DNA of 64,000 nucleotides, from assembly GCF_019059575.1 (NCBI RefSeq), contig NW_024881671.1:496001-560000 (forward strand). The letters run 5' to 3'. The position numbers and the translations under genes are program-made. The notes under the pieces were generated by a model. It was not told the origin of the DNA. It searched no databases and saw nothing but the letters and a program-made list of their open reading frames with translations. This DNA is from Amphibalanus amphitrite. Its lineage: Eukaryota; Arthropoda; Thecostraca; Balanomorpha; Balanidae. Positions 6,021 to 62,424 of this stretch are shown in pieces (position 1 is the stretch's first letter; each line of letters opens with the position of its first letter).

Positions 6021-6473
6021 CTGGATAGAGGCTTTCTACGTCATATGACATTAGGCTCCGCCCACGACTGCGGCATTGACCCGTGCCCATCAGCGACCTC
6101 TGTACAAACGACACCCCTGCCATCTGTGAAGGACTATGAATTTCGCTGACGCTTCACGTGCTATGAGTCAATTGCAGCAGACGGTCAAGTAAATGTTAGG
6201 CTCTTGTTGACTCTTGTATGTAGGACCAAGAGGACCATCACTCCTCAACCTACTACTCAGTCGTGCTTCGAACAAACGTTAACGATTCCTAACAAATACG
6301 ATTTTCGATGTAGGGTATCTGTTTGAAATACGAGCGAGCCGTATAATGTGAAGCTCAGGCAATTAACTTATTATTGCGTTGTTCGATGGTTGCATAGCGA
6401 TGTACAAATCGGCAGCTACTTGGTGACATCCGACATCCCATTATCGCATTATCTGCAACGCCATAGGCTTTAA

Positions 6474-7659: not shown

Positions 7660-8214
7660 TTAAATACAGGTGAATATTTCCTAACCTTATGTCAGTTATA
7701 TGCCATCTGCTCGTCATATGCAGCTTATAAAAAAAAAATATCAGCGAACATATCAGCATTGTAGAAGCAATGCGCATTGAGCATTTATGACTCCTTAGTC
7801 ATCATGTCGCTCTCTGGGCACTGTCAGCCAAGACGCTACGCACAACTCCGCCGGCTTTCGGCACCGCTCGACCGTCGCCCGTCCCCGCTCCCCGCCACAG
7901 CGAGAGTGACCGCGCGCCGGCCCGAAACCGCCGCAGGCCAAGACCACAGAGGCGGGGCTTAGCTGTGACGTCATAACCTATCACAGACTGACTGGTGATA
8001 GCCTCGACACACCGGATGAAAATCTTGCTCGAAATTTAACATTACGAGTCAATGACAAGTGCCTGAAATATTGAAATGGCGATAAAATATCTAAATTGTA
8101 AAAGTTTCGGCCTGTCTTGAAACGGCCATGTCCTGAGCTTGGTTGAAATTCCTTCACGCATTTAAAAGTAATCGCGAAAAATTAGGGTCTCAAGGGGTCT
8201 GGCGTTAACAGTAG

Positions 8215-22781: not shown

Positions 22782-22830
22782 GGGGAGAGTGGGGATAACT
22801 GGGACGCGGGAGAAGTGGGACACCTTTAAT
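22782..22830 (+). mobile_element. solo end of a GGGGAGA keyword MITE
   Basis: TA followed by GGGGAGAGTGGGG and then ATAACTGGGACGCGGGAG and AAGTGGGACACC. This is the outer end shared by the four complete GGGGAGA elements in this window, with a different inner phrase. No matching right end was found nearby, so it is probably truncated. It lies about 300 bases upstream of the opsin start codon. Confidence 0.6.
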
Positions 22831-26100: not shown

Positions 26101-29100
26101 GAAGATAGCTGCATACTTTCACGTACATTTTGCATTCTTTTAATTCAATTATTAGACCATAGTTTTTTTCAAACTTATACCTTTTCTAATGGTGTCTCCC
26201 AAAACAGGGCTAACAATTAGTCATCTTTTCAAGTTTTATTCACTTAATTCTTATGTTTTTATATTCTCACTTATTATATTCTCTTACATTATTGGCAGCG
26301 GATATGGATTTCTATTGAGGATAATTATCAACGAGAGCTCAGAATGCGAAGAGAGAGGCAGAGAGGGGAGAGTGGGCTCGTTTCCGTCGGCTGGCTGGCT
26401 GATCGGGCACGGCCGAATTTTGTCTGTCGGCCCAATTTCGCGTCATCGTGTCGGCGTGTCGGCGCGGCGGCGTGCTACGGTCGACAGGAGCGCCACGCTG
26501 ACGGTCAGAGTGCCAGCCGGGCGATAATCCGTAACGATCTTGGCTGGAGACGGACTCGTTAATCGTCGCGCGTCGGCCCCGCCGCAGCGCGCACGCGGCA
26601 CGAGGGGCGACTGAACGATGCTTGGCGCCGATCAGACGGAAAATGGGGAAAACATGCGGCGCATAATGGACGGCATTGGTTTTCGCGCTCCGAAAAACAA
26701 ATGATCGTGATGCCCACCGTCGTCGCTGGATTGGGTGCGGTGAAGCGAGTGTCGCTGAATAACTGGCGTGGCGAGATTTGCGTTTTTACTCTCTATCACT
26801 ATAACGAAGCTTTACTTCGAGAATACGCAATCTCTTGCGCATTTTGCAGGCAGTGTTGATGTGTGAAACCTTCCGCGCAGTTTTTCCATACTCGTATGAT
26901 GATAAATTGTTCAACGTTTTATTACTATTGTCCACATTGTCTGTCACTCTGAAACTAATTTGTTACTTGAGGTAAAATTTCGCTCACAGTTTACCGCAAA
27001 ATGAAAAACTTCAAAAACGCTTCGAGAAGATTGGTCTTAATCCTATTTTTTTTTTAGGGCTGCTTTGGCAGAACTATCTAAAACTATATTCATGAAATTG
27101 ATCTGTTCAAAGATGGTAAATGAGCTTTCTCCAATTGAATTGAAATTCTCCAAGCTGAGCCGTTAATTCTCGATCAAAATTTTCAATGTAGGTATTTCAC
27201 CAGGGACACTTTTGCTCGTCCGTCTCATTCAGCCTGGAGAGCGTTGGATCCTCGGACCGATCGGGACTGGAATCGATTCGGAACTCTCTGTTCGCCGCTG
27301 ATGGGAATAGTGTGCGGCCGATACCAGTGGTCACGTTCCGACCCGAATGGATTCGATGCGTCGGATGGACGGTTTTTGGCAATGTTCGAACGTTAAACCT
27401 TTCACTCAATTTCTGAAATAGCACGGAATTTCGCGATCGTGCAGTAGAGCTCACAGACCGAGCCCATATATGTAGGGGAGACCCGGGAGGTATGGGCCGG
27501 TTTTGTGAAAAAGCAATTTTCTTCCAGTGGGCAGTGGCTAGACCCGGTTTTTCACTCTGTGTACGTGAAATTGACTTTCGCCTGCAACCTATGCCTGATA
27601 TTAGGCATCTGGGAGCAACTATTTTGTCTCGAGATAACTTTCAATAAATCATGTGCTTTTTCGATCCATCAAAATACACCGGGAGGTATGGGCCATGGCC
27701 CGGGAGGTATGGGCCGGTGCCATGTTTCATATTCTTTTCTCGACATTGAGAACAATACTCGAAGCTGGTTTCTACCTTGATCTCTCTTTGAGCCCAGGAA
27801 CCGCATAAGCGGCCAACAGCTTACTTCATGGAGGTCTTTTGGGCCCATATGTATTTTGGTAAACTCAATCATGCACCATGAAATAAAATCAATAATATTT
27901 TTCTGTTCGAATGAAATTTGAAGTTAAATTTTCGACATGCGCGACAAAAATAAAACTTATTGACGGGGACATTCAATGAAAGCATCTTTTAATTTATTTA
28001 GGATCAACAGGGTGGGTGGCCCGAACCTCCCGGTTAGGACGCCAGAATGTGCGTAGCATCTCAGCTCATAATCTTGCAAGAAAACCTCAAATTGTATATC
28101 CAGTCTTAACAGGCATGCTTTAAACTTTATGTAAGCAATGGTCTGGCATCATAAAACGAGCCTGGTTCAAATTTATCACGACTTTTCTGTATGTACCGTA
28201 TTTTGCTCGAAGAGGGCAAAAACGCTTTATCACCGCCCATTGCCAAAGAAGACTGAGGAAGATTTTGAAAATAACGTAGGTTGTATAATGGAATGGCTGC
28301 TACCAGTTAACGCCGTCAAATGTGTAAAAATACGCAACACTTCTTCAAAACTGCGATGGCCCATATCTCCAGCGGGCCCATACCTCCCGGGTCTCCCCTA
28401 TCTCGCTCGCCGAAAAGAAAGGTTTTCAATGCGTCCTTTGGTAAAAGCCACAGATCATCTACATGTATGCATAAGGCCCAATGTATAAGGATGTATAAGG
28501 CCCGATGGTGATATCTGTAGTGCTCAATTCAAATATGAAGCATGTAAAATATTTTCCTTGTCATCCTTGAGCAATAGGCCATTGATAGATATACCAATAA
28601 TTAATCAATATAGGTCAAACTTCCTTGTTGTAGCACTTGCTGTATGTAAGGCATAGGTTAAGTTCTATGAAAAAAAAAACACTTTTAAATGGCCTCCTTA
28701 GAATGAAATACCAAATGATGACATAATGAAATAATTATTGATGATCTCGACCACAGGTTATTATCAAAATAAGCCAGACAGACTTTACCATCAATAATTG
28801 TTTCATGAGGTATGTCATCATTTGGTATTTCATTGTAAGGAGGCCATTTCAAAGTTTTTTTTTCCTATAGGTCAAACTTCGGTATCACAAAATGTTATGC
28901 ATTTTTGATGAATATTTTAGAAACGATACGACTTGGAAGGTTCGGGACGTTTTTAATGGGTCACCCGGTAAAAGTATAATTTTTGCATCGTGAATTCAGT
29001 TCAGTAGGTTTGAGTACCAGTCAAAGCATTTTGGATTCATTTCGCTGAAACGGAAAGTATGTACACCTTGTGTATAGCAGATTGCATGATCCTGCAGTTC

Positions 29101-32100
29101 AATACTTAAGATGGCACTATGGTTATTTTTATTGCGCGGAAAGTTCCTGAATTTAAAAGGGGGATTGAAAATTGTTGTGTTTCTGTTATATAAAAACAGT
29201 GCCGTGGAATCCACGCTTTTACGTCGAGGTGCAGACTGCCGGCTGTGCGGCCAGAAGACAGCAGTGTGGAGACGGCTGCCTGGAGACCGACAGAGCGTCC
29301 TTGACCGTGTGAACTGCCCGGAGTCGGGCGGAGCGCCGTGCGGAGACGACCTCTCGTAGTCCGGCGCAGCGTCCGTGCGGAGACGGCCTCTCGCAGCCCG
29401 ACGGTGCGGAGACGACCTCTCGCAGTCCGGCGGTGCGTCCGTGCGGCTGGGGCCGCGCGGTGTGCTGATGCGGCGCTGACCAGTACTCGAGACATGCATG
29501 TCACGCTGCTGCCGAGCCATCCTCTCGGACGAGTGCAGATCAGTCGCTGACGTGGTCGGAACGCCGCGCGGACGGCCGATATACAACTACAGGCGACTAT
29601 TGTCAATTGGTTGTTGAATCACTAGCGGTAATTCGTGGTATGTGGTTACTGGTTGGTATAGATAATTCGATTGTTTTGTTTCCTGTTATGCTGGCATGAT
29701 ACCGGTCGGTGTCCCAAAAGCTTATAGATGTACATATTGATTCGTAGACCAATTTTGCTTGCAGGTCCCATTTTTTCGTTATGCCTAGCCCCTAGGTAAC
29801 GAAAAGGTCAATTTTGTGCATACTTTTTCTAATCGGTCAAATTAGCCGCCAAAATCACACATGCTAAAATTATATTTTTAAGTTGTAGACCACATTAAAA
29901 AGAAAACAAAATCAAATTTGCCATAAAACTGAGTCACTTGTATAGTTACACAATAACTAAATCTGGAAACCTCTTTTGAAATTTGAGCTCATTTGACCCG
30001 TTTGTGACAGGTGATGTGACAAGTTACAGTCTGAGACATCAAAGACCTCCCTCCCTCTAATAAGAGGGGATGGCGAGACACTCGGGCCAAGGTTTGCTAG
30101 CGGCGCGGCACGCCCCAGCCGGGGCACGCGCCACGCTGCCCCTCCCCCCCCCCCCCATTTCCGGGATTATCCTCGATGCCAGCGGCGCGGTGTAATTGCC
30201 TTTTGTCGTCTCCCAGTGTCGGATATTACAAATGGGGAATGTCAGCTGCATTAGAATTATCTGCGAAAACGCCGAATTACGTCCGCCCACACGCCCACGT
30301 GATCAATTGATATTTGATATCAGTAGGAAGTCTGTGAATGAGAGGAAAACTCATTTTGTCTTCGCAAGATAAGGTCAGTAACGCAGTGCTGAGACGTGAT
30401 TCTGTGCGGTGTCTTGGTCTATATGCTGTTATAGGGGCTATAAAAACAACTATGTGGGTGGAAATGTCACTATGCGAGAAAAAGATGAAGGGAGCGAAGG
30501 AAAGAGGGAGAGAGCGAGAAAGAAAGAGCGGGCTGAATTTAGCTCAGCACTGGGCAGTCCGGCTCACGGCGCTCTAGGATATTAGCTCGATCAATAACCG
30601 TACCGGAAAGTACTGGTACGTGTAAAAGTAGGTAAAATTTTCAAATATTTTGTTTTTACAAGGATGATTTTTGTGTGCCGTCCAGGCCTGCTGGCTACGT
30701 TGGCCAACGCCGGCTCGCTGGTGCTGTTCGTCACGACGGCCTCGCTGCGCACGCGCGCCAACCACCTCATCACCAGTCTGACCGTTAGCGACCTGGGCAT
30801 GGCGGCCACGCAGATCCCGCTGCTGGTGGTGAACAGCTTCAGCCGCCGCTGGGCGGCCCCCGTCTGGATGTGTCAGGTGGGGTTGAGCGCGCCGTCGCCG
30901 GGCACTCTCGCGGGGCAGGAGGGCATGAGTGGTTGGCCAGATTTTCCCACGGGGGTGTACGAAGTACAGATGTGTTAAGATTTGTGCTCTATTGCTACTC
31001 CATCTGCTGACCGATAGTATTTTACTCCGTGTTACTGACTGGCTTGAATGTAACGGAGATATTGTATGGTGTGGGACCCCGCTATTGACTTCGACCTGGG
31101 TCGGGATACCGTCGCCATTTTTAGTTAACCAATCCATTAAACCTTGTCAAAGTTTGTTTGGCTCATGTGCATTACCGCGCGGAAAAATGACGGGGATCCC
31201 GTTCGGCAGGTGTACGGCTTTTGCGGCGGGGTGTTCGGCACGGCCTCCATCATGAGTCTGGCCATGATTGCCGCAGAGAGAAGAGCTGTCCTCTACCGTA
31301 CCCCCAGTAAGTAGCCGCGTCTGATGGTCAGAGGTGGAAGGCGGCATGCCGTGATTTTGCTCAATCAAGCTGCAATAAAAAAGTTGTTTGTTATTCTATG
31401 ACTCACTTATTAATTCCTACACAGACTGTGTAGTCAGTGTTAAAGTTTGTGTATATATGAAAGTCATGTCTATATATTAGTATACTAGGATGTTGCAAAA
31501 TCGAACGCATTATAGTCATTCCAGCCAACGTTTTTTGAAATGTGTGATGATTGATGATGAAAGTAAAGCAAAAAAAAAATCAAGAATGAGTACGTAAAAG
31601 AAGTCATATAATTTGAGCCGTAATCGACATTAGTAAAAGCTAACATATTTCACCCATAAAAGAAAGGTAGTCGCTAAGTGAGCTACGGCATAAGTGAGTA
31701 GGGGAGAGAGGTCATATTGCGCCATGTTCTTAAATGCGCCACACCTTCCTCCTGTCCAAAATTCGATTCGAATGAATGCTCGAATGTGTGCATTTACTTC
31801 ACCACCAATAACTCGCTCTTATTCCGGTCCACGGGGGCAGGTGAGGTATCTCAGCTTTCTCGCAGACCATTTTTTGTGATTTCCTCTATTTTCTTACGCG
31901 AAACAGTCTATTTCGACCTTTGCTAGTGTCATGGTTTATCTTAGAGATAGTGATTCAACTAATAATCATTGTTAATTGCTCGTTTTATGGTAGTTTTGAA
32001 AGTTTCTCACCACCGTGGCTTCGCTGTCCTCGCCATATTTGAAGCTCATGAAAAATGTGTTCCATTCGTAATTGCGCCCACCCTATTTGCGCCCTATTCT

Positions 32101-35100
32101 TCAACTCAGAGAAACAGTATCTGGTGGTTGGGACACATTTCATTGAACACTTTGATTATTAGAGCACTCACCTTACCATTACCTTAGCCTTCACAGCATA
32201 AATGGTTAATGGGCTGACACGTTCAAATAGGCAACTTAGTTAGGTGGCAAACCGTTGTTTTTAATAGGGCGCTTTTACATGAGAGGCATGGGCGCTTTTT
32301 GATGGGGTAGTCCGTAAATGCGCCCTTTGCAGGTGTGTCGGAAAACTTTTCTCTTGTTAGTTTTTATGGGTGTGATACAAATTAGGAGTTGTAATTTGAT
32401 GCCAAAATAACTGAGGTAGAATTTGAGATATCATCAAGCATGACAGCTGGTCAACTTTAGCCGCAATAGGCCGATATCCTTAAGGTGGCGCAATATGACC
32501 TCTCTCCCCTAATATGTATGCTACTAATGAGGCATCGTAGTCTTTATTTACAACTACGACCTCCATGCTATCATGCTTGGAATGTCATATTATCAAAGCC
32601 TTTCTTAAGAACACAGTCAAGCTCGTCGTTTTAACTAGAAACCACTCACCGTGAGATAAGATGGCGAAGAAACGCGTCTCGTTTAATCTTTTCCGTCCTC
32701 AATGTGCTGGTCGGGTGGTGCCCCTGTTTGTCTCGTTAGGAGACGGCACCCTCCGACATTTCTCCGGGACGAAACGAGCTAATTTCGAGCTTAGCGTCCG
32801 GGCAGAAGTAATTCGGAAGTCATCCCTTTCGAGCATCGCCCGGACGGTGGTAAGGAGTAGCCGCTGGAGGTGGGAGACGTTTGCCCAACTTCGATTAGCT
32901 TCTCGAGTGGCGCATCACTACAATTGTTGGCGAAACCGATATAAAGTCCAAATTCTTTAAGAAACTGTGTATTTATTCCTACACAATAAGAGTAATTGAA
33001 TTATATTTATTAGAGTTTAATAACTCGTCCGAAGATTGTTTACCTTTAGTAGGTACACACCTTTGTTATCCTTGGCGATTGATAGACAAGAAAAAACAAT
33101 CGACCGATAGTTTTCTGAATTGTTATGCCTGATATTAACCCGCGCCCTGCTGGGGGGGGGGGTGTTTGAACACCCCCCCTTGTGGTTTTTCGCGAATATC
33201 TCAAAAACGGCGGCGCGGAGCGCCGCCGTTTTTGGTACACCTTATCATACATCAATTCTACACATGTTGTGAAAATTTCAGACCAAGGTCATTCAAGGTC
33301 AGGTCACCAGGTCACTTGAAGTTACCTCACTTCATAAAAAGTTTCAATGTCTGTCATAGCTACACCGAGTGACCGATCGCTTTGAAACTTTCAGCGATTG
33401 CTAAGAGCAATAGCATGTACAAAATGTATATCTCAGAATTTTGATATCGATGACCTAAGGTCAGGTCAATTTTGCGACCTCCCCATTATAAGTCAATGGG
33501 AGAAAATTGAAATGCGCCTCCTTTGGTCGAAAGACATTATAAACACTCCCAAACACTGAATTACAAGTGGTTTAGACACACTGAACATGAAAATGGTGTC
33601 CGTGACCCCTGTTTATGCCCTGAGGTCATCTTAGGTCACGAATGGTATCTAACAGTTTTTCGCAAATAACTTTTGATAGAGGCATGCTAGAGCGATGAAA
33701 ACGCCTTAGATGTGTTCAGCTCGATGATACGGATCGACTGATATGCAACATGACCCTTTCCGGTCAGGTCATGACCTTGACCTGAGGTCAAATTTTTAAG
33801 TTGACCTTTCAAGGTCAAGTTATAGTTCATTCGATGCGTCTTGACGAGAGGAACACGATGCCGGTAAAAGTAAGCTCGTACAAGGCTTGGGTCAAAAGTT
33901 ATTGCAGAAAAACTGTCTCCGAAAAAATCGGCTATTTTTGCAGTTTTTGCCCCCTGCAGGCAAAACCGTTGACGTTAGGTCAAATCTGAGAGAATTACTC
34001 AGAAAGGGCGTTAATAGGGCTATCGAATGCGCTTTTCCGCGGCGCTGTAGCTCTATTGGTTCCCGAGTTATGCGTTGGCTTCTTGGAAATTGTCGACATT
34101 CGACCTGGAAATCGGCGAAATTTTGCCTTCAATGACCTCTGGTGACCTGACCTTTGACCTGACCAAAAAATTGACCGAAGTGATTTCCTCATTATTTTTG
34201 ACGCTCTTTCGAACGCCGCCTTCCGCGTATCGCTACGTGGCCCAGGAGCCGAGTTAGAAGGGGGGGTGTTCAAACACCCCCCCCCCCCAGCAGGGCGTGG
34301 AAATCCAGGACCCCCAGCCGGGCGCGGGTTAACATAAAAACAAAATAAGTTTTTGTATTTCTTGGCTTTGTGTATTAGGGAGCTATCATACCTATAAACT
34401 CCTCGTCATTCTATTCATGTGCCCAAGCATTTGCCAATGTCCGGCTGATTGGAAACAGCCAAAATAAAATAAAACTTAACCCTCGCCCTGGCAGGGGGCG
34501 GTCGATGCGACCCCACCCCCTAAGGTTTTTCGAAGATAGCGTAAAAACGGCGGCGCGCAGCGTCGCCAAATTTGGCACAGCTTATGGGGCAACGTTTTTA
34601 AATATGACCTGAAAATTTCAGGTCCGGGTGACCTTGGGTCAGGTCACCAGGTCAGAAAAAACGGTACAAGGTCATGGTCAAATTTCAATTTTCTTTTTAC
34701 ACCTGTCCAACTCACAGTTTTGGACTGATTTCCTTCAAACTCTCAGGATGTGCTAAGTTCACCGAGTTGTATAACATATAGTTCGGTTTTTGAGGTCATT
34801 GACCTGAGGTCAGTTAGTCATTAGTGACCTTTGTTTGGTCAGTTAGTGACCTTTGCAATGGTTATTGTTCAGGGGCTGTTAACATTGAAGGAAACAGTCC
34901 ACCTTTGAAATGAGGTTTTAAACTGAAATAGGAGTTTAATGAGGTCATTACGTCGTAATGTTAAGCCTATGGGAAAATACTAAATTCGGAAAATACTGGA
35001 GACATCCGCTTTGTTCCATCACTTTTGTGCTTTGAAACCACAGTACGTAACAGCAGGTCACTTGGTGCTTCTTTGTTTGGTGTACTTATCCATGGGTCAG

Positions 35101-38100
35101 GTCAAATGAGGTCAACTGAGGTCAAATGACGTTTTTGCCAATAACTTGGGACATAGGGGAGAGCGGGGCCAGTTGAAACACGGGGTCAGATGAAACATGG
35201 CTTTATTTTCAACAATATGCAACATATGGCGACGGCGTTGCCGACACCACTGCGCATCCGCGCTCGACCACTTCCTTTGTCAACGGCGTTTGGGCGGCAA
35301 ACGGGCGGTAATTTTGATTTGACACTTTTTTTTGTGTTTTTGAGGGGCGTTTGGGAGAAATCGTTTTTGTGAATATTTTGTGATATCTCATATACCTTTG
35401 TTTGCTGAAAGAAGAACTCCTGGCTCCGGAATAACACCTTATTTGGCCCTTCATAGTTCATTCAGCATGATGCCGTCCCTCCAGCTCGTTTGACATGTGC
35501 TTTACGGCGCGTGCAAGATGGTGGGAGCGGATGGGGTCAATTGAAACGCTTCTCTGAGGGTCAGTTGAAACAGGGCCACAGGCCGTTTCAATGGACTCCG
35601 GTGACCTTTGCAATGGTTATTGTTCAGGGGCTGTTAACATTGAAGGAAACAGTCCACCTTTGAAATGAGGTTTTAAACTGAAATAGAAGTTTAATAGAGC
35701 TCAATTTTTGACCCCTTTTTCTCCAGCCTTTTGCTTGAAAGCACACTATAGCCTGAGATATTTCTCATTTTTCTCGTTCGCCCATTTTACCATAGTCTAT
35801 GTACTTCATGCCACCTATTATGAGGAACTTTGCACTTTAAGCTTTCCAACGATCTATTGAATGTAACATTTGGAAAAGTAAACCGGACAAAATATCTCCT
35901 TAAGAAAGTGGCCTTAAAGAGGAAAACATCCCATTGTTAAGGATAGGTGCAATTGACCCCATGGGCTGGTTCAATTGACTCTCGCATCGGGGTCATTTGA
36001 AACGGGCGTAGAGCTGTTTTATAAGAATGCGTTTGGCAGCAAAATATGTTTGAAACATAATTTTACATATCTTAAAATAAAGCCAAAAGAGCATATTTTT
36101 TCATGGCATTGTGCATTTTTCGATATGACAACTAGATCTCGCTGTGCATGTCAATATATAAAAAGTGGTTCAACTGGCCCCGCTCTCCCCTAATGACGCT
36201 AGAGCTAAAAAAAAAATGGTGTCATTGTGTTCCGTGTGATCAGCCGAATCGAATGATATGCAATATTATGCAATTTGGTTGACTTGAACTTGATTAGTTA
36301 ATTAAAGTTTACTTAATAATTAAGAAAAACTTTAAGTACACTTAAGCAAGCTAAAAATTATATCATTCGACGCGCCTTGACGTGCTGAGTTCACTGGTGA
36401 TTTTCTTTTTGCTCTAGCTTAATTAGATCAAAAGTTATAAGCGATAAACTTTTGACCTGTTTTAGCGAGATTTTTACATTTGTACAGTAGGTCTATTAAA
36501 AAAGTCCCCAGCACCAGTGGGCGCTGCCTTCGCTGAGCCGAACCCCCGTCTGCCTGTCCCATATCGCGCCGGGCTCAGGTCAGGTAGGGTCAGCGGGACC
36601 GCTCGGTCCGGCCCGCGGGCGGTGGACGGGCGGCCGGTAACGCTTTCCGCCAGCCAGCTGTAGAATCCAACAAACGGGACGGCCACCGCTCAGCGCAGCG
36701 AAACCGGTGTTAAAGAATGGCAGTAGATGTTCATGGCCACAATGATTATGAGATAGTCATTATTAGCCCGTGCCCCACAGGAATGCCTAGACTCTCACGC
36801 CCTGTTGGAGGGGAAGTGGGGATTGAGCATCATTCTTATAACTCAGCTTTGGGCATTTATGTGGTATTCGAAGTAGCGTCAAAAGTAGCAAAAAGAAGAA
36901 AAAAATACTTCAGCCAATTTTGGATCGGGTCATAGCCAGAGGTCATGTCACTAAAGGTCATCGATGGTAAAATTTTGCTTAGACAGGGTGCGTTGCGCGC
37001 ACCGGTGCATTGGGTTTCCAATTTGCATGGAAACATCAACAGACTCGGAACAGTGGCGTAGCCAGAGATTAGCGAAAGGGGGGGGGGGGCCATGGTGCTC
37101 GAGGGGGCGACTTTTTCCCTTAAGAGGGGCGCCATTGTCAGCTAGTGACAGGGGCGTCAGTCTAAAATGTAACGTCATGTTCATGCATGATTTACTAGGT
37201 GTTGCAAAATGCTCGTACATAAGAACCAGCTTTCGCTGATTTTCATAAAATCCAATTAATGCAATTTGCAGCCTGGTGTTTTTTTTTATAAAAAAAAACC
37301 TTGATCTAGATGAATTTTTAGCATGATATAGGAAACGAGCTCAGGCTACGGACATTTTATTCTCAAACGCATCCATGCGAATTCGAAACGATAAAATAAC
37401 TATACGTTGATCGATAGGCACAATCTTTATTCTTTGCAAAAAAAGAAAAATATACGGGCTCACTCACTGATCCGAAGTGACCTGTGGGCTACAGCCTGTG
37501 GTCGACCGGGGTTGCCGTGTTTAGAATCTCAGAGCGCACGTATGTAGGATTCACGCTGCGACTTATTGCCTAAATTGGAATCAAGGAAAGACTTGAACAT
37601 TTAAGACCATGAGATCCACCATGAGATCTCAACTCATTGTCATACCAGCAGCGACTGCAGTCAGAGGCGACCGAACACTGACATACGTTCGGGATTTTTT
37701 CTCCACACAGCACCTTTACAATTCGATGTCTAGTGCGTGCAGCCCCTACTTGTGGACATGCATGACTGCCTCCAGTGACTGACTGCCACTAGCCTCCAGA
37801 GGGCAACAACTCCAAAAATAGCAGTTTTTATTAAAATCGTTTTCTGCAATAACTTTTGACTCAAGACAGTGACGACATTTATTTTGCCAGCATCGTGCTC
37901 CTCTCGTCGAAACGCGTCGAATGTTGACCTTGAAAGGTCATTTTGAAAATTTGACCTCAGGTCAAGGTCATGACCTTGACGGAAAGGGTCATGCTGCATA
38001 TCACTCGATCCGTGCCGTCGAGCTGAACACATCTGACGTGTTTTCACCGCTTTAGCACGTCTCTATCAAAAGGTATAGCGAAAGAAATGCTGGTGACCGT

Positions 38101-41100
38101 TCATGACCTGAGATGACCTCAGGGGCACACAGAAGGGTCACAGGTGCATTTTGTCGATTCAGTGTGTTATGTTTACCTATGAACTGATGTTTGAGAGGGT
38201 TTTGAACCACATTCGTCCAAAAGAGGCGCATTTCAATTTTCTCCAATAGAAGTCGCAAAATTGACCTGACCTTAGGTCATGGATATCAAAAGGCCGAGAT
38301 AAACATTTTATACATATTGTTAGTCTTATCAATCTCTGAAAGTTTCAAAAGTGATCGTTCCGTCGGTGTAGCGTATGTACGCTGGGGCGGCACCGCACTG
38401 CTAGGCGGGGGCGGCATCGCAATAATAGGCGGCAATGCGCTGGGGGGCACCACTTGCATTGAGGGGTGGCATTGTACGGTGAAGGGGCGGCGTCGCATTG
38501 AGGGGCGGTATCGCAACGAGGGGTGGCACTAACGAAGCTGCCTTATAAGAAACGCTTGGCACATCCTAGCCCAGCTCGGCGCCGCCTGGCTGCTGCATCT
38601 TGAAAAGGGTCCTTGGTGTCGATGAGACATTGTCAAATAATTACCTACCTAGCGTCAGTGGTTTCGGGGGGGGGGGGGGGCGCTATCGATCTTGAATGGG
38701 GCGGGGCGACTGAAGTCTCCATTCAGATGGGCGTCAGTGACTACTGGAGGGCGCCAACGAACTCGGATAGGGCGAATGTGATCTTCAGAAGGGCACCGGG
38801 TGATCTAGAGGGGTGTAATGCTTACATAGGTGGGGTCACTGCTGCCTTCAGTAGGGCGTCGGACGCTCTGAAGGAGCGCCATTGATCTCGGATGATTCGA
38901 CTGTTTTTTTTTCATAGGGGCACCAGTGGTTTCAGAGGGGCGCCATTGATTTAGGATGGGGAGACTAAAGTCCCGGTTCAGGTGGGCGCCAGTGGCTCTT
39001 GAGGGGCGCCAGCGACCTTGGATTGATGACGACTGTGATCTTTAGAAGGGTGTTGAGGGGCGCCATTGGGCATGGATGGGGCCGCTGTTGCCTTCAGCAG
39101 GACGCCGGACGCTCTAGAGGGGCGCCTTGAGCTTGGATGGGGGACTGTAGTCTCAAGGGGCGTTGTCTCGGATGGGGCGAATATGATTTTCAGAGGGGCG
39201 CCGGGTACTCTAGTTAGAAGGGCGCCATTGGTTTCAGAGGGTTGCCATCGATCTTAAGATGGGGCAGCTGTGATCTCCGTTTAGGTGGGCGCCAGTGACT
39301 TTTGAGGGGCGCCAGCGACCTCGGGTGAGGACGACTGTGATCTTCAGAAGCGCACCGGACGCTCTGGAGGGACGTCATTGGGCTTGAATGGGACGGCTTT
39401 AGTCTCAAGCGAGACGACTTCAGTCTCAAGGGGGGCGCTAGTGGCTCTCTTGAGGGCGGTATTGATCTCGGATAGGGCGATTGTGATCTTGAGAAGAATG
39501 CGGGTGCTTTAGAGGGGCGCCAGTGGTTTCAGGGGGCGCCATCGATCTTGGATGGGGCCGAATGGGGCAGCTGTGAACTTTCAGAGGGGCGCAATTAACC
39601 TTTAATGGGGCGACTGTTCCGTTCAGGTGGGTGCCAGCGGCTTTCAGGGGCGTCATCGACCCTGGGGGTTCGGAACATTCTGGTTTCCGGAGGGGCGCCC
39701 TTAAACATTGGGGGGCTCAGGTCCTATTTGGGGGTGCCCTGGAGAACATTGTGGTGTCCAGGCACCCCCAAAGAGATATTGAGTTCGATCCCTGCCTGCA
39801 CATCACTTTTTAATTCATGTTCCCTCTGTAAAACGGCATCAGCCTAGTCGGCGCTAATTGGGGCGCCATCTGGGCGGCTGGGCGGAAAGGGGGGGGCCAT
39901 GGCCCCCATGGCCCCCCCCCCCCCTGTCTACGCCACTGACTCGGAAGCTCGCAACGCTAGCGTGGAGCCGTATTCATATCAACCGCCGCCGCAACAATGC
40001 AGCAGCGCAGCGCACGCGGGGCCGTGAAACACCGCCCAGGGCTATCCATGTGTCAGGGCAATCCAAACCACGTGATGGGCTCGGCCCCAGCGGAGCATGA
40101 GGTCCAGGACTCCCGCCCAGGCCCCCTGTTTCCCCCTAATTCCTATCATCCTTCCCACTCTGAAATCGACCGAAAGAGCCTAACCTAACACAACAATCAG
40201 CTCTTTTACCGCTATGTCTGAATAATATTGTCAGATTTAATTAAGGTCAACGGCTTAGCATGTAAATAACAACAACTGCCACCATCGGTATTAAGAGAAA
40301 ACCAATTGCTTTTTCCACAAACACTTAAAAGTTTTTAGCTTAAATGTTTTTAGCTTAGTTGCATGAAATTAATTTTACCAGTCTCGTGTTCCTCTTATCA
40401 AAACGCTTCGAATGAATCAAAAGTTGATCTTGAAGGTCATTTGAAAAATTTGGCCTATGTTCAAAGACATGACCTGACCAGAAATGGTCATGATGCATAG
40501 CAGGATATTAGATCCGTATCATGGAACTTTACAAATACTTTAGATGATTTCATAACTTGAGCATGTCTATCAAAAATAATTATTACATGGCTCATATGTA
40601 AGCTGGGTGTGTGAACATGCTTAAGAATATGTTGAACGCAACTGATAATGTTCTGTTGGTTGGCCACAATTTCTATATTTAATTTATCCTCCTGGATTTC
40701 ATATTTTTGTTAATGACACATTGAAGATGTCGAGAAAAAAAACGCTTAGGAGATTTAACCCTGCAGTTGCTGGGGTATTTCGCCACCCGCCGTTTGCTGG
40801 AGGGGGGGGCGTTAAACGCCCCCAGCCAATAACTCGACAACCAATGGGCGCAGCGAAACGCACTAGGCGGCAAACGAAAAAACGCGACGAGACGCTTCAG
40901 ATGAGTACTTTAAGTTGAATTTTGAGGTCACAGGTCGGGTCAAGGTCAGGTCAAACACCTGAAATCGGGCTTTCAGCAGGATGGACTTCAGAACCTCGTA
41001 ATGGGCGCCTCTCGTCATAAACTCTGTCAAAACAGTGCACAATCCTTCATATAAGGCCTACAAGAGTGTCAGATACATGTAGGGGTCAGTCAAACATAGG

Positions 41101-44100
41101 TCAGGGTCAAGGTCAGGTCAATCAGGTAAGCACATATCCCCAAATAGCAAAACTGGTATTCGCTGTCTATGACACATGTTTTATGGGTAGGGGAGAGTGG
41201 GGTAAGATGCCCAGGGTGGGAAAGACGCCCCACCCCCTCTAGCGGCGAAACAAAGAATCGAACCTGGAAATTAATGTTCTTAGCGTAAAGCGGAAGCCTG
41301 CCTTGTTAACTGCACAAAAATTTGCGAAGCTCAGTTGGGCAACGGCTGGCTGGTGATTGCATGTTTTTTATTTGCTGCTTTCAAAAAATAGTTTGGTGTC
41401 AAAACATTGTAAATATCAAAGAAGGTAGATAATTTTGCGTCCCTTGCTATAGTCGTGATGCATTAACATGCTTGTACTGTGTCCCAAACAGTTTGTTTCA
41501 GGGTGTAGTTTTATGGCTGACAAATTGTACTGATTTAATGTTACTTCGGTACCTTGGGGTAAGATGCCCCCTGTCCTGATGGGGAAAGACGCCCCCCCCC
41601 TAAATCCGTAGGCTTTCCTTCAAGCAGCCCGTCAAATCATTTATTACATACTTGTGATGAGAGACAAAAGCCGATCTGGGACTATTGGGAGTCCAGTACG
41701 GTCGGGTGCTCCCCATGCCAGTCTCTCGGCCCACACAGCGACTTTTTGGGCGGCATCTGACTCTGAGAGCCCTCACGACGGCCTCTGTGGGCCCCATTAT
41801 TGGCTCCAAGGCCCCTCACGACATCCTTTGAGGGCTCCCACGTTGGCTCCACGGGCCGCGCTGGCATCTGAGGTCCCCACGATGGGCTCGAGGGCCCTCA
41901 AGCATCATGAAGACCTATACCTAAGGGCCCCACAGCGGTCTCCGAACGCCACCACGGAGGCTTGTTTGGCCGCGCTGAACTAAGCTGGCCCTAACGATGA
42001 CCTCTGAAGCCCCTTACGACTACTTTTGAGGGCCCTTACGATGACGTTTGGTGTCTACTGCAGGCTCGAAGGGACTACTGATTCGTTCAGGCGATTCACG
42101 TGCCCATTTATGTCACTTATAGTGCAGGGGGCATCTTACCCAACGCCAGGGGGCGTCTTTCCCACCCTGTGGGGTAAGATGCCCCCTTTCACTTCTTCAG
42201 GAAAATGCTTAATGGCAAAAAAAGTTATCATAGTTCAGGCACGAAATTGTGATATTTTTGGAGAAAAATGATGTCGGCTTCTGTTGAAACTCCAAGTTTT
42301 TGCCTTCCGATCGTCATTTTCGAATAATATATGACAAAGTAAAACCCTGGGCATCTTTCCCCACTCTCCCCTAATTTTGGGCGTAGAACACGATGGTGGC
42401 ATTCATTGTATCATATGTGCACGTGTTTGGTTCAAAAAGTTCAATTTAAGAAATGCATGTATCATGGTGGTGAAGTAGTCACGAAAAATTGCCAAGATTC
42501 AGTTCAAGATTGTGGAAAGTGTGGAACGATAATCAAAAATCAAAGATAGCCATTGGATTGTTCATGGTATTGGCAGTCTAATGACGTTTACGGCATGTCT
42601 GTATGTCTATTTTGTGATTTATATGGTTTTTTGAACATATGCCGTTTTTGGTCGAAAACTCAGAAATCATGACGTCACTAAAACCTCGATAGCTCAAAAA
42701 TTTTCCGACCGATTTTTTTAACTTTGCCACAATAAACTTCGATCAATTCCCTACAGGTACTTAAAATTTGGCGCGCTTGCGGCGCGCCGTTTTTATGCTA
42801 TAGCGCGGCGAAAAAAGTGGGGGCGTTTAACGCCGCCCCCCCCCCCCCCAGCAACTCGCGGGTTAACAGCCTGAGATACATTCAGTATGAGGAAGGTTCA
42901 AGGGTGCTAGATTCCTTCCGTCCTCGCTAGCCTCAGGAAAAACCAATCCGCATCGCCCCTAGTCTTCATGCTTCCCTCTCTGGACTGGAGGTCACCCCAC
43001 CAGCCAACCTGTAGTTGATGTCAGATCCATTCCAGGACACATAATCCTCTTCGGGTGACCGTTTGGGAGACGGCTGGACCGTCCCGACAGGGCAATCGTT
43101 CCACGGGAACAGTCTCGCTTCCGCAGATCACTGACGCTGGCTCGCACAACCCAATTACTACACCAGAGCATAGCTATGTCATAGCTCTGCAAGGGCCTTT
43201 TCAGACAGAAAAAGATGGCCCCCAACAAAACAAACAATTTTCTCATTCAGTATTGTATCTCATCAAGCACCACATGTTCTCAGAGTGTTTATTATGCGTT
43301 CCGTCCAAAAAAGCGCAGTTCGATTTTCTCCCATTGACTTGAGCGATCTCAAAATTGACCCGGCCTTTCTGTCAACAATGTCAAACTTGCAAAGTAAACG
43401 TTTCAAATACATATACTGTTGCCCATTAAAATCGCTGAAAGTTCTGAAGCGATCGTTAGTCGGTGTATTTAGATATGATGAGCACAGGAACTTTCCTTCA
43501 GGTAAGGTCACTTGACGTGACCTGTTGTTACGACCTTGAATTGAAAGACTTGGGCGGGAAAAATGGGTCATTTGAAATATTAAAATGCTAGCTTTTAACG
43601 ATAATTGCAAAAACTATCCCGGCAAAATAGTGAGTTAGAAGGGAGCAATTCCCCGACCCCATGTTTAGCTCCTATAATTGAGCTAGCTGTTAGAGCCTCG
43701 CGGAAAACGAGCGCTTGCGTCGTTACGTGACGCAGCGACTGGTACCCCATTTTAAAATATCAGTGACCTCTTAGGGCAGGTCAAGGGCCCCGAGGCATTT
43801 AATCGGTTTTTGGTAAATAACTAAACGCATTATCGTCATTTCGATACAATCGTGTTTTCTGTTCTCAGACGCGTCGATTTATATGCTTTTTTGTTTAGGT
43901 GAAGCAATTTAGGATGTTTACCTCAGGTCAATGTCATGTTAGGGCAACGCAGGTCACGAAGCTGTTGAAAGGAGGACATGTTGCATAACATTTGATTCGG
44001 CAAGTCTTGCAAAGTCCATTGATGGCTGTCTCGACTGGCTAGCTCATTTTGATCGGGAGTTATTGACGAAGCACTCCTATGACCCTAGTGACGTCATAAA

Positions 44101-47100
44101 TGACGTCACGCAAGGTTAACAATGCAAAAGTGAGGCATTAGACCTTGCCAAGAATGTATGAAGCCACGATTTCATGTGCTTGAGGTATAGTATCAGATCA
44201 TTTCCGACGCCAAATTAACAGTTTCCATGAATTCCCCATTATGCGTATATGACACTAAGTGCATTCCGGATTGCATCATTTTATAACCGACAACCGTGCA
44301 GAGGTTTACTTAAGACGTCATAGTTAAGTGAACTGACCTGAAAACGTGGTTGAGGTCAAGTGATCCGGCTTGAATGAAATGTAAGGCATGTGAAATGTCA
44401 GCCTTCTATCATCAGTGTGCTTTGAGCTACCCCAAAAAATACATGGTGGCGGCATCGACCCCTTCTTATCGGCCGGCGAGGGTTAAACCTCGCTTCGAAT
44501 TATTGCAGATAATGATGCGACCGAAAACAAAGCATTTAGGTATATGTGTCTAGAACGGCCGCTGACTTGTTGGACAAGATCCCCAATCTTAATTCGCTAG
44601 ATGGGAATAAAATACTCGGCATGTGATACATATAGTTATACCCCTCGATTTGCCCCTCGCGTTAAGTCTATTCTAATCATCACTGTCGCTTTTTATCCGA
44701 GATGATGTCGCCGCTAAACAGGTTGCTCTGTTTGCTTGCTTGCGTTGAATGGCCATTACGGATTATTGAAGGATTATGATAAAATAGGAATGGGGCAAGG
44801 GAAGATATGCACTGCAGGTGTTTAATTTAGATCACAAAGGCATCATTTCCAGCATCGTGCAGAGTCATTATCTTCCCCTGTTCTGCACTGCGGCATCTCC
44901 GCGCCCCACACAAGGCGTCCTCACTCCACGGCCGGCCGCCGCCAACTGACCCACTCGCCGGGCGCCGCGACCTGACCCGTGTCGCTGCCGCGGCCTGCGC
45001 AATAGAGTCGGGGCTGGAATCCGGGGGTTCGACCGGCCGGCCGCCTCTGGAGCGGGGGACTTTTTTAGTAGACCTACTGTACCCCCCAAACCCCCTCTAA
45101 ATATTGACCTAGAGCAACCAAATTTACACAGGGGCGAGAACTCCAAGGAGCCCACCTACCTACCAAATTGGTGTTTCTAGGTGCCATAGGAGCCAATCGC
45201 GAGGGGGGTTGCATCGACCCCCTGCCAGGCCGTGTTATGAAAAATGCCCTGCCAGGGCGAGGGTTTATACTACAGATATGTATCATCAGCCACTGACTGT
45301 CGCCGGTGTGCTCCGTCAGAGTTGCTTATTTTTAACGTATGACAGCACTCGGAAAGCTATTTTGAGTGCAGTTACGTGATGCTAGCACAGAAAAGAAATG
45401 GAAAGGATATATGAGCACTCTCGTTTGGAGTGTTTTTGTTAACTCATCAGAAGCACGTAATTATTGTGAAACATTTGCATACGAAAACTAACGTTATCTT
45501 CATCATCTGTCAACTCTCGTGGCGGGTATGTAACCCTCTTCTTTATTTCAAGAATAGTTCCACTTGGCAAACTAAGGAAGCAATTTAAATCCAACTTTCT
45601 CGAACTTTTCCTAGAAGTGATGCAGCGTCTTACAAATCTGAATACAGAATTACATCAGCAGTTACAGACTTCAGCTAATTTTCTTGGTAGGTACCTACCT
45701 AAGCAATCTCTAGGCACTGTTCCATTAACATATTCCGAAGTCTTTATGCAAATAGGTACCCAGGAAACAGCTCACGTCAGCTAAGCGCAAAGTTGATGCA
45801 TGAGGTCCAAGTGAGCCGCGCCCGCTCAATATACAATATACATGCAGTAACCAGGAGAAATTCTTCCGATGTCCTTGTCTCAGCATCGGTGGCTTACCCT
45901 ATTGAACGCTGTCGCCGTTTCGGCATCCCTCGTGCAATACAGCCGTGTCTCCGTCGCCAATCGCCATCCTGTTGGGGCCGCCACTTCCCTGCCGTCCTGC
46001 TGTTGGGCTGTCGGTCTCTGCGACTCGGTACGCTATCGCACGTCTTCGTTTCTATGCCGTCACCGTCACCTGCGCGTCCCGGCAGACAGCAGCCTTGGCC
46101 TGGCTGTCACCTGGGCGCGCATCGCCTTCATCTGGGGCTTCTCGGTGGTGTGGATGAGCCTGCCGTTTGTCGGAGTCAGCCGATACGTCCCCGAGGGGTT
46201 CATGACCAGGTAAGTGAGCAATGTGTGTGGAAATAGACGTGAAAATAGATAGACGTGCTACTTTGCAGCATCTGTGTCGAAGTAGGCGGCTGAGATAGTC
46301 TGGAATGTGAGGGCACGGGGGTCGTTTCACAGCTAAAAGTAACCGTCTAGGTTCAGCTGGCTCGCTCACTCTCGTAATACAGCAGGGTATTAGACGTTCC
46401 GCTTTCTTTTAGCCACCCAACATTTTTAGATAATTGTGTTTCTAATGAAAAAATATATCCCTATAGTATGTAGGTAAGTCGCATGAGATGGAAAGTGATG
46501 AATTTCTATTTATTTATAAATGCTTGAGTTCCCAATAGATATTTTTGTTCTGTCCCTTAAATGTTAAGGCTAAATATTTAATATCAGCACAGGCTCTGCA
46601 GTATCCAAGATAGTCAGCCCAAACTCACACATGTAAGTGTAACATCAGCTCAACGGTGTCCGGACAAATTGCCGAAAGGCGATTTACCGAATGTCATTTT
46701 GCCGAATGCATTTCGCCGAATGTCATTTTGCCGATGTGCTTTTTGCCGACGTGTCAAAAAGTCGAAATGCTAAAAGTCGAAATGCCATTTGCCGACATGC
46801 CTTTTTGCCGAAATGCCAATTTGCCGAAATGCTTATTAGTCGAAATGTAACTTTGCCGAAATGCGATTTGCCGAAATGTCGATTAGTCGAAATGTAAATT
46901 TGCCGAAATGTCAATTTGCCGAAACGTCAATTTGCCGAAATGTCAATTTGCCGAAATGTCAATTTGCCGAAATGTCAATTTGCCGAAATGTCAATTTGCC
47001 GAAATGTAAATTTGCCGAAATGTCAATCTGCCGAATTGGCAGTTTGCCGAAGTGTCAATTAGTTGAAATATAACTTTGCCGAAATGTCAATCTGCAAACC

Positions 47101-50100
47101 TAGGTTAGGTGGTGTTTATTTACTTAGGACCGATCACCAATTTACTTTTGGTGCAATCCCCAACTAAAAAGCAAATCACATGATAGGTATCCTTTGACCT
47201 CCTGATTTCATAACTAATAATTATTAATGGCACAAGCAAGTTTAAAAACACCAATACCATGTGGAAATAAACATCAAATTGCTCGTGGCGAAGCAGTGCA
47301 GTGCCGAAGGCAATGCCTTAGGAGAGATTACAGGCAAAGGTAAGTCAAGTATTTTTAGGCTAACCCTCGCCGGCCGAGGGGGGTTGCGGGTGCCGCAACC
47401 CCTAGGGTTTTTTTCGCGATAGCTCCGAACACGCTGGCGATAGAGAGCTGAAACTTTACATAGCTGACCTTTGATTCAAGCCGGATCTTTTTACACCAAC
47501 CGCATTTTCGGGTAAGGTCAGGTCACCGACCAATGACGTCATAAGTGAACCTCTGCACGGTCTTCAGATGTCGCAACTTCGCAACACCCTCACGGCCAGA
47601 GGAGCTTTCACAGGGAAATGAAACATGCAGGACCTAATATCCATTACAAGTCTCACAGCTTGTATATCTCAGATTTTCCGAAAGGTTATTTGAGGTCAGG
47701 TCATTTCCGTGACCTCACCATTATAAGTCAAGAAGAAAAATGAAAACTGATATTCTGGCGCCGGGAACGAGCTCTGACTATCTCAAGCACGCAGAATCGT
47801 GATTTGACGCCTTCCTTGCAAGGTTAGATGCGTAACTTTTGCAATGTTGACCTTGCGTGACGTCATTTATGACGTCATCAAGGTCATATTAGTTTTTCTT
47901 CAATAGCTCCCGATCAAATTGAGCTAGCGAGTCGGAAAAGCCACCAATGGGCTCAGGAAGACCTGCCGAATCGAATGATATGCAACATGACCTCTTTCCA
48001 CCAACTTCATGACCTGGGGGTGCTGACCTGACCCTGACCTGAGGTCAACACCCTAAGTTGACCTGACCCAAACAAAAATTATATCATTTGACGCCCCTAA
48101 GCAAGGCAAACACGATGCTGCCAAAATCGCGGCCCTGCGGCCCTTTGTAGCGAAGTTATTCGCCAAAAACTGAACCGTACCTTGGGGCACTTGACCTGAC
48201 CTCAGAGGTCACCGGTTGACGTAGGACCTTAAAATCGGGTATCAATCTCTGCGTCTCGTAACGGCGCACACGCTCGTTATTTCCGCGACGCGCCAGCTCC
48301 ACCAGGGGCGAAGCGACTAATAAGCATTTCGGCAAATAGGCATTTCGGCAAAAAGGCATGTCGGCAAATGGCATTTCGACTTTTTGACACGTCGGCAAAA
48401 AGCACATCGGCAAAATGACATTCGGCAAATCGCCTTTCAGCAATTACCACCTCGGCCGGCGCGTATGTAGAAAACCAATAGGTCCGGTGAGGGTTAAATT
48501 GTTGTGTATCTGGCTTCAGGCCTTCGGCCTGAAGCCTGATGCACAACCACTTAACCTAAAAATAATTGACTTATCATTGTCTGCAATCTATTCATGTGAG
48601 TATCTTCTTCCTTATCCACGGGTAGGCAAAAATCAGTAGGTCGGGTTAGGTAAGGTTTGGTTATGTTTTCTTTTACTTTGGTGACATGTAAGTGGGTTTC
48701 TTTGCCTTTGAAAAGCGAGTCGGTCCTAAAGTTAATACTTACGGGTCAGGTTAGGTTAGGTTAGGTTAGGATAGGTTAGGTTAGGTTAATTTCGGCTAAT
48801 TGGCATTTCGGCAAATTGACATTTCGACTAATTGACTTTTCGGTAAATTGACATTTCGACTAATTGACACTTCGGCAAATTTACGTTTCGACTAATTAGC
48901 ATTTCGGCAAATTAGCATTTCGGCGAATTGACATTTCGACTAATTGACTTTTCGGCAAATTGACATTTCGGCAAATTGACATTTCGACTAATTAGCATTT
49001 CGGCAAATTAGCATTTCGGCGAATTGACATTTCGACTAATTGACTTTTCGGCAAATTGACATTTCGGCAAATTGACATTTTCGACTTATTGCACGTCGGC
49101 AAAAAGGCATGTCGGCAAATTGCATTTCGACTTTTAGCACTTCGCTCTTTTGACACGTCGGCAAAAAGACACGTCGGCAAAATGCATTCGACATATTGAC
49201 ATTCGGCGAATAAGCATTCGGCAACAAGCAGTTCGGCAAATTGTCCTGTAACCCAGCTCAACACCAGGCCAGGGTGAGATGGGGCCGGGAATCTCAAATG
49301 TGTCGCAGCCGGCAGCCTGCAGCCCTGAATGGCTTGGTGTTCAGCACCGAATATGCCGCTATAAAAAACACTCGGATCAGACCATTCTGGTTCGACAGAG
49401 GGCGATCACTTTCTAGGCCAGAGCCGAGCCCAATCCCCGAAAATGTCTGTGCTCAGAACGAATACGCGTCTGGAACTACATTGGATCTTTCATCCTTTTC
49501 ATATTGGGCGAGATAAATCAGAGCCTGGCGAATAAAACGTGCCTTTGAATCACACTCGTCGACGTTGAAGAAAAGCATGTCGCTGAATGACGTATCTCTT
49601 CGAAAAAAATGATGACAGGTCAGTTCTTAAGGTAACACCTAGCGTTTATTCGTGCTTATGTCAGTTTCACTAATCAAAGGACGAAAAAAAAAAACTTATA
49701 GGTATGTTTTGTAATGATCGCACTCAACTATGTTGCTGAAATTATTGTCAATGGCATTATTTTCACCCGCTGCGTGAACCCCAGCAGTTGCATCGAAGTG
49801 CAGAAGCAAATAGAATTACGAACATAACCAATAACCATGTTGTTGCCATCCTCGTTACCTATGCTACTCGACAGATTCTTATAACGTGGGTAAAAGCTAC
49901 ACCATCCTCACCTGGCGGAATATTTACCTTTTTTCAGCTGCACGTTCGACTACGTGTCGGGTGACGCGGTGTCGCGCGCCTACATCGGCCTGTCGGTGGT
50001 GCTGTGCTACGTGGCGCCCCTAGTGGTGATCGCCGTCTGCTACTGCACCATCTACCGGCTGCTCGGCAGGATGCCCGACATCGCCGTGCACACCAAATAC

Positions 50101-61857: not shown

Positions 61858-62424
61858 TAAACAACAAATCTACTAGGTTCCTTCGGCCTTCCAGTTCCTT
61901 CAACACCTATGCGAAAAGCAAACATTTAAATACACTGTGGTTCACACACGTTTTACCAGTCATTTGAATAGTTCCTGTGCTCGTTTCCTCTACATACATA
62001 TTTGAGATCTAGCGAGCTAAATCTAAATCGGAACTGCCATGACGTCATTTGAATAGGTCTAATTTCAAAAGGATTTAGATATACTTTACCAACAACCTTG
62101 ATCCGAGCGCTGCGATCTTTTTGTTTACGCCAGCCCGCGCGGGAAGCGAGAGAGTGTGATTGGGTGCTAGGTCGTGTGCGTCGGGTGGTTCTCTCTTCTG
62201 CTAGACAGAGACATACTCTTATTGGAAATTGAACTGGGTGTTGTGCTGTGTGCCAGTGTCTTTATGGCCAATTGATGCATAGACGCAATGGTGAATGCCA
62301 CGTAATCCGCCTGGCTGCCTGCGTCGTGAAACTTGGCGCAGCGGCAGGATGTCTTCTATCCGGCCCCGGGGATGTGGCGCCTCAGCAGCCTGGCAATTGA
62401 TGTGCCCGACTTGTCTTGATGAAC
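61858..62424. other. intergenic, no gene recognised
   Basis: Unique sequence between the 1-kb array and the 19-bp minisatellite. A frame opening at 62295 runs into the minisatellite and is not believed. Confidence 0.5.

Follow-up and report, generated by a model that had tools for sequence, protein, structure and literature searches.

In Sleeping Beauty, all four inner and outer repeats are required. The repeat core is bound by one subdomain in inner as well as outer repeats, another subdomain acts at the outer repeats only, and assembly has been proposed to begin at an inner repeat (PMC7827188). Bari carries three repeats per end, which are bound by the Bari transposase (PMC3828361). In soybean CACTA elements, the subterminal motifs diverge between subfamilies while keeping some common regions, and it is suggested that they co-evolve with the protein that binds them (PMC2613891). 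Precise phasing of the outer subterminal repeats is important in Hermes (PMC10368747), and element-specific binding motifs are described for Herves and other hAT elements (PMC3143072). We report here on four short elements and a solo end, named A to E, that lie in a 64,000-nucleotide stretch of the Amphibalanus amphitrite genome (contig NW_024881671.1, positions 496,001 to 560,000). This whole stretch is called the window, and positions are counted from its first letter. A preliminary description had presented them as miniature inverted-repeat transposable elements (MITEs) with common GGGGAGA ends, each with an inner phrase of its own.

Tips, target sites and phrase copies

The presence of four TA-flanked elements and a solo end with a common tip was confirmed. 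In the window, the G+C content of which is 0.479, TAGGGGAGA occurs 10 times, against 0.21 occurrences expected. Eight of the occurrences are the ends of elements A to D, another is the solo end E (22782), and the tenth, at 55040, is followed by no phrase of this kind. TA stands on both flanks of all four complete elements, and the duplication shared by the flanks is never longer than TA. The inverted ends are exact over 24 bp in A and B, and extend with one mismatch over 26 bp in C and over 28 bp in D. The left end was defined as the end with two tandem phrase copies. The two-copy end of A is the right one, its orientation being opposite to that of B, C and D, and A was thereby turned around. 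The elements are as follows:

27475..28398, minus strand: element A, 924 bp, TA-flanked, left end at 28398
31701..32509, plus strand: element B, 809 bp, TA-flanked
35156..36190, plus strand: element C, 1035 bp, TA-flanked
41190..42371, plus strand: element D, 1182 bp, TA-flanked
22782..22821, plus strand: solo end E, a left end carrying the phrase twice (22792-22805 and 22808-22821)

To locate the copies of the phrase (hereafter, sites), the 14-bp phrase beside the left tip was used as a seed and both strands of each element were scanned. Matches in at least 11 of 14 positions, tips included, number 6 in A, 2 in B, 6 in C and 8 in D. Counting only interior 14-mers, the end phrase is matched at this level 4 times in A, 4 in C and 6 in D, and never in B, with 0.03-0.11 matches expected from shuffled interiors. 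The full phrase of B is confined to its two ends, and the interior copies consist of the core only: B contains 8 GCGCC/GGCGC words, 6 of them interior, while 0.75 are expected from its composition, and six interior words were reached in 4 of 5000 simulations of that composition. The repetition of the inner phrase in both orientations, which had been described for all four complete elements, therefore stands beyond chance for A, C and D, and is reduced to the core in the interior of B.

As sites of B we took all 8 GCGCC words on both strands, none being omitted. C has four matches at 10/14, two of which were taken by their position as sites 5 and 6; the other two, on the minus strand at 409 and 430, were left aside. 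The matches left unused are three in A (all 9/14), four in B (three at 9/14, one at 10/14), four in C (9/14) and three in D (one at 10/14, two at 9/14); the unused B match at 590 is one base away from B site 6. The sites lie as follows:

28358..28388, minus strand: A sites 1 and 2 (28375-28388 and 28358-28371)
28018..28031, minus strand: A site 3, 12/14 matches
27681..27715, plus strand: A sites 5 and 6 (27702-27715 and 27681-27694), exact copies
27485..27498, plus strand: A site 8
31710..31740, plus strand: B sites 1 and 2 (31710-31723 and 31727-31740)
32065..32093, plus strand: B sites 3 and 4, core only
32268..32324, both strands: B sites 5 (minus), 6 (minus) and 7 (plus), core only
32487..32500, minus strand: B site 8
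35166..35196, plus strand: C sites 1 and 2
35534..35598, both strands: C sites 3 (plus) and 4 (plus), and an extra weak copy at 35585-35598 (minus)
35946..36003, both strands: C sites 5 (minus), 6 (minus) and 7 (plus), of which 5 and 6 match at 10/14
36167..36180, minus strand: C site 8
41200..41231, plus strand: D sites 1 and 2
41557..41595, plus strand: D sites 3 and 4
42128..42185, both strands: D sites 5 (minus), 6 (minus) and 7 (plus), with a strong single-strand hairpin
42348..42361, minus strand: D site 8

The solo end E consists of the left pair only, and its two sites, at 11 and 27 of its end, fit the layout of the complete elements given below. The remainder of element E was not found, and the E phrase, with up to 3 mismatches allowed, is absent from the rest of the window.

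Layout and spelling of the sites

When their positions are counted from the element ends, the sites fall at nearly the same places in all four elements. Sites 1 to 8 start as follows, negative positions being counted from the right end and minus-strand sites marked (-):

A: 11, 28, 368, none, -241(-), -220(-), none, -24(-)
B: 10, 27, 365, 380, -242(-), -219(-), -199(+), -23(-)
C: 11, 28, 379, 403, -245(-), -223(-), -201(+), -24(-)
D: 11, 29, 368, 393, -244(-), -222(-), -200(+), -24(-)

From the left end, site 1 ranges over 10-11, site 2 over 27-29, site 3 over 365-379 and site 4, in B, C and D, over 380-403. Counted from the right end, site 5 ranges from -241 to -245, site 6 from -219 to -223, site 7, again in B, C and D, from -199 to -201, and site 8 from -23 to -24. 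All eight sites are common to B, C and D in the same orientation, and six of the eight are found in A. When the starts of the inner clusters were placed randomly (fuller site list, flips allowed, orientation ignored), none of 2,000,000 placements was as tight at both clusters. As sites 5 and 6 of C had been picked with the layout already known, the comparison was also run with a strict list from which these two were left out. With tolerances of 12 and 4 bp, which were fixed after the data were seen, this list gives 18 pairwise coincidences; random placing and flipping of the clusters gives a mean of 1.86 and a maximum of 16, so that 18 was reached in 0 of 20,000 trials. The fixed layout is a stronger regularity than those of the preliminary description, which had overlooked it.

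The spelling of the sites is coherent within each element. Pairs of sites from one and the same element (99 pairs) have a mean identity of 0.802, with 0.905 for A, 0.633 for B, 0.829 for C and 0.890 for D; when the same site is compared across elements (42 pairs), the mean is 0.480. Upon exchanging the element labels site by site, the observed coherence was reached in 0 of 5000 exchanges, and likewise in 0 of 5000 when sites 1 and 8 were left out. Layout and coherent spelling are thus both far above chance. That the phrase varies as a unit while the tip stays constant is supported by these figures.

The phrases are not mutually unrelated, since a rough skeleton, GGG..A..TG...C (columns 1, 2, 3, 6, 9, 10 and 14), is common to all of them. 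Column 10 is G in 32 of 32 sites; column 13, outside the skeleton set, is C in 25 of 32. Agreement in the seven skeleton columns is 0.80 within elements and 0.67 between them, and in the seven variable columns 0.80 within and 0.29 between, a contrast that is partly built in because the skeleton columns were picked by eye from the phrases before scoring. The phrases resemble diverged forms of one motif rather than cassettes, and the swapping of interchangeable phrases that had been proposed is not borne out.

Between the sites we found little in common. With the sites masked, the arms (left bp 43-364, right last 198 to 27 bp) show no convincing similarity: the lowest p of the 12 comparisons is 0.043 without correction, and no blastn match of one whole element to another is better than E 0.13. 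Given the lack of convincing similarity between the arms, either spacing and sites have outlived the remaining sequence or the remainder has been replaced. The longest stop-to-stop frame lying wholly within an element has 123 amino acids, and 10 open reading frames from the stop-to-stop lists, two of them crossing element edges, gave 0 Pfam matches up to E 1.

Explanations of the phrase

We consider it probable, at roughly 0.7, that A to E are non-autonomous, internally deleted MITE-like transposons of one TA-target lineage and that the phrase is bound by diverged subfamily transposases. The tip TA-GGGGAGA would be read and cut by the catalytic part of the transposase, and would hence stay constant, and the 14-bp phrase would be the address at which its DNA-binding domain binds. 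As many as four sites in each arm would bring the two ends into one transposition complex, as the outer and inner direct repeats of Sleeping Beauty do: on the left an outer pair and an inner pair near bp 365-403, on the right a trio at 245-199 bp from the end and one outer site. The arms (about 400 bp on the left and about 245 bp on the right) would have been retained because copies without sites are not moved, and the centre would be free in length and may acquire filler in gap repair. Each element would represent a subfamily of its own with a diverged transposase DNA-binding domain, so that one spelling is found per element. The fixed layout also predicts which of the sites are required by the moving complex.

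The preliminary description had ascribed the ends to a shared transposase and the phrase perhaps to protein binding. The tips are indeed constant, and binding by a protein appears, by analogy, to be the best explanation of the phrase; a single transposase for all the elements seems less likely than several related ones of differing specificity.

Several observations weigh against this explanation. The element results come from one 64-kb window with one copy per element, and neither a transposase nor an autonomous copy was seen within it. A is without sites 4 and 7, the best match at those places being 6/14, and the position of the left inner site has a spread of 14 bp. The sites of B are core-only, with the within-element identity of 0.633 given above, and 2.3 GCGCC/GGCGC words are already expected in its interior at the whole-window average rate, so that the evidence from B is the weakest of the four. 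In C, sites 5 and 6 are weak (10/14), and an equally strong copy at 430 falls outside the layout. Inner repeats, moreover, need not be used binding sites, since Hermes with two inner putative sites mutated has about 70% of its activity left (PMC10368747). Two further points on this side, bases shared by the flanks of sites and a hairpin in D, are taken up with the explanations to which they belong.

The coherent spelling might instead stem from gene conversion or template switching among the sites of one element, a concerted evolution in which binding specificity would play little or no part; this we regard as unlikely. Exact repeats of 20 bp that extend into the flanks of the sites are found in A (681-700 and 898-917, in reversed coordinates) and in D (23-42 and 961-980, inverted), and these common flanking bases hint at copying between sites. 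In D, the sub-types GGGTAAGATGCCC and GGGAAAGACGCCC alternate at sites 1/2, 3/4 and 5/6 (41200-41231, 41557-41595 and 42128-42163), and a 103-bp stretch in C suggests that copying is possible at these elements. However, the start-to-start spacing of the pairs differs (18 and 25 bp in D, 17 and 24 bp in C), so that they have not simply been block-copied, and equal positions in four elements are not what random conversion predicts.

The stretch of C and its counterpart outside the element are:

35601..35703, plus strand: stretch of about 103 bp, central in C, with 97% identity to 34846-34947
34846..34947, plus strand: possible source of the filler, ending 208 bp outside the left tip of C

It is the only match that arms or centres have in the rest of the window, where a third long copy of it is likewise absent. 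It is possibly filler copied from the flank by gap repair, and may then point to breaks in the element centres, or else, as is also possible, a small dispersed repeat of which a copy lies in each of the two places. Among animal Pack-TIR elements, 160 of 281 cases of gap filling involve a source within 15 kb, often with microhomology (PMC8277862).

Binding of the phrase by a host protein, either an architectural factor or a repressor, rather than by a transposase is improbable in our opinion. Interior sites that are clustered and in both orientations resemble what regulatory clusters may be, but the terminal inverted repeats themselves contain the outermost copies, at about 10 bp from the cut, and a single factor would hardly explain a phrase that varies among elements of one genome.

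The preliminary description had also considered that hairpins formed by the phrases repair or generate the element ends. We folded the right inner cluster of A to D only, as single-stranded DNA, and compared each one with 200 shuffles. The cluster of D (42120-42190) forms a strong hairpin with a long stem (z -5.9, none of 200 shuffles being as good), which slightly weakens the explanation by transposase binding, and that of B is a moderate hairpin (z -2.1, 6 of 200). Sites 5 and 7, moreover, are oppositely oriented in B, C and D. Folding is weak in C (z -1.5, 20 of 200) and in A (z -1.1, 24 of 200), both little better than their shuffles, so that the hairpin is a feature of D, and perhaps of B, and not of the whole set. 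The first-site phrases pair with themselves at 2-3 of 7 positions in A, B, C and E and at 4 of 6 in D, and A is without site 7. As a general explanation the hairpin mechanism is unsupported, and we deem it very improbable. That these are unrelated families with convergent G-rich tips and an accidental layout, as the lack of any convincing likeness beyond sites and tips could suggest (best blastn E 0.13), is hardly credible in view of the layout coincidences (0 of 20,000 and 0 of 2,000,000) and of a common skeleton in which column 10 is G in every site.

If the phrase is bound by transposases, it is conceivable, and we propose it only tentatively, that a multi-site design has been recoded in concert, within one animal genome, into the five spellings seen in A to E, yielding parallel lineages that no longer cross-mobilise and that would be natural orthogonal pairs of transposase and site. 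Tip, spacing and about half of each site would then be fixed and a seven-base address would change. How a DNA-binding protein and its many sites change specificity jointly is an open question, since a change confined to a single site would be expected to do harm. The four elements described here, all within 15 kb, have kept tip and layout but spell their sites differently. Together with the genome and the partner transposases, they would make up a natural series for the co-evolution of a DNA-binding domain and its sites, and could yield transposon vectors without mutual interference.

Surroundings, relatives and known systems

The frame 30598-30978 resembles the rhodopsin-type receptor family 7tm_1 (E 8.4e-7; 29.2 bits, just below the Pfam cut-off of 30.5) and the solved opsin Kumopsin1 of the Protein Data Bank (PDB; E 6e-7), a jumping-spider protein. 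B, C and D lie downstream of this opsin-like exon and A lies upstream. A further region, at about 46040-46240, looks opsin-like by eye; its frame has no Pfam match.

Other repeats were noticed in the window. G-run inverted ends (CCCGTTGGGGGGGGGG...CA..TGCCCC), about 1.05 kb apart, are found at 52190-53290. These repeats (52.2-53.3 kb) were considered as a fifth element by way of GGGGCAAAATGCCCC and rejected, their ends being CCCGTTGGGG... and not TAGGGGAGA; they are probably another transposon family. Two facing arrays of a 16-bp unit (CAATTTGCCGAAATGC consensus and its inverse), at 46665-47095 and 48789-49132, are about 1.7 kb apart and foldback-like, with tandem-repeat arms. At 62423-63070 lie 34 copies of a 19-bp unit that match at 100%, and several frames are open there on each strand. 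Several tandem copies of a roughly 1-kb unit, 86-94% alike and with arrays of ACTTGGTACTTGC-like repeats, lie at 56594-60842. A 179-bp inverted repeat, 99% complementary, lies at 5423-5601 and 8036-8214 (2.4 kb apart), and inverted copies of about 420-431 bp, 94% alike, at 11883-12300 and 16624-17054 are probably a dispersed repeat.

Relatives in other genomes were searched for with TAGGGGAGAGNGGGGNNANNTG, which gave 10 matches at 9 loci, one in viral contigs and eight in genome contigs. In the sequence available up to 1500 bases away, the opposite tip TCTCCCCTA was found for 0 of the 10 matches. An exact second copy of the phrase is present at two loci, L005 (direct, 150 bases off) and L009 (inverted, 74 bases off, together with one copy with 3 mismatches); copies with 3 mismatches are found at L003 (overlapping) and L004, and none at the other five loci. 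As all the records are named bacterial or viral, we judged these loci to be chance matches or bacterial repeats. A stricter two-site pattern gave 0 matches in viral contigs. At L009, which belongs to Marinobacter, an inverted repeat at about 6400-6523 starts with TAGGGGAGAGTGGGGATAGCTGATCA and has the exact inverted phrase copy 74 bases on, without the opposite tip.

A to D agree with MITEs in three properties, namely inverted ends (24-28 bp), a target duplication (TA, 4 of 4 cases) and no coding capacity. TA is also the target duplication of Tc1/mariner elements (ITm group), and placement in a superfamily reaches "TA target" only. Four other assignments were rejected. The target of piggyBac and Kolobok is TTAA, and TTAA flanks were found in 0 of 4 elements; the flanks show no 3-bp match, as for PIF/Harbinger, in any of the four. 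hAT elements make a target duplication of 8 bp, and no 8-bp match between flanks was seen in 4 of 4 elements. CACTA tips in animals are CACTG, and those found here are GGGGAGA, not CACTA; a subterminal motif repeated in both orientations, which is also a CACTA trait, is present.

As to the design, A to D have, like Sleeping Beauty and Bari, repeated outer and inner sites in each arm, and tip- and core-specific recognition is described for those two systems (PMC7827188, PMC3828361). The TA target is that of Sleeping Beauty, which has an extra half-site in one arm (PMC7827188, PMC3828361). A subset of Tc1/mariner elements has an inverted repeat/direct repeat (IR/DR) arrangement; outer and inner repeats are present in A to D, but in a number and at a distance unlike those of Sleeping Beauty. 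What sets A to D apart from Sleeping Beauty and Bari is the tip GGGGAGA, inverted ends as short as 24-28 bp, and arms that each hold three or four 14-bp sites, those of the left inner cluster lying at 365-403 bp. The Submariner MITEs of Pandoravirus salinus, which are ascribed to Tc1/mariner, are likewise short and non-coding and have a TA duplication, whereas a multi-site layout with changed spelling was not met in the accessible part of that article (PMC4495683). With hAT elements (Hermes, Herves, Tol2), A to D share short motifs repeated inside the tips and differing by element, which in hAT are bound by the transposase (PMC10368747, PMC3143072); the duplication, being TA, sets them apart. 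Uptake of nearby DNA as in Pack-TIR elements would fit the 103 bp of C (PMC8277862), which is, however, a single case among A to D.

In the open-licence literature, outside of which most subscription papers lie, and within its accessible portions, we met no TA-target elements with a kept multi-site layout and changed spelling, which is weak evidence of novelty. Among the papers listed for the sequence strings themselves, the titles point to unrelated subjects. A parallel in spelling is that of the CACTA elements (En/Spm, Tam1, Tgm1 against Tgmt*), which combine conserved tips with a subterminal motif that is present in both orientations and diverges between subfamilies (PMC2613891). The statement of the preliminary description that no such case was known was therefore too strong, conserved tips with divergent motifs within one species having been published for CACTA (PMC2613891). 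The differences lie in the tip, which is not CACTA here, and in the repeats, of which the soybean element carries 4 on the left and 24 on the right (PMC2613891), against 6-8 sites here that hold their positions across subfamilies. Fixed tips with element-specific subterminal motifs are an already known principle; the variant met here, in which a multi-site layout persists through four spellings within 15 kb, is unusual.

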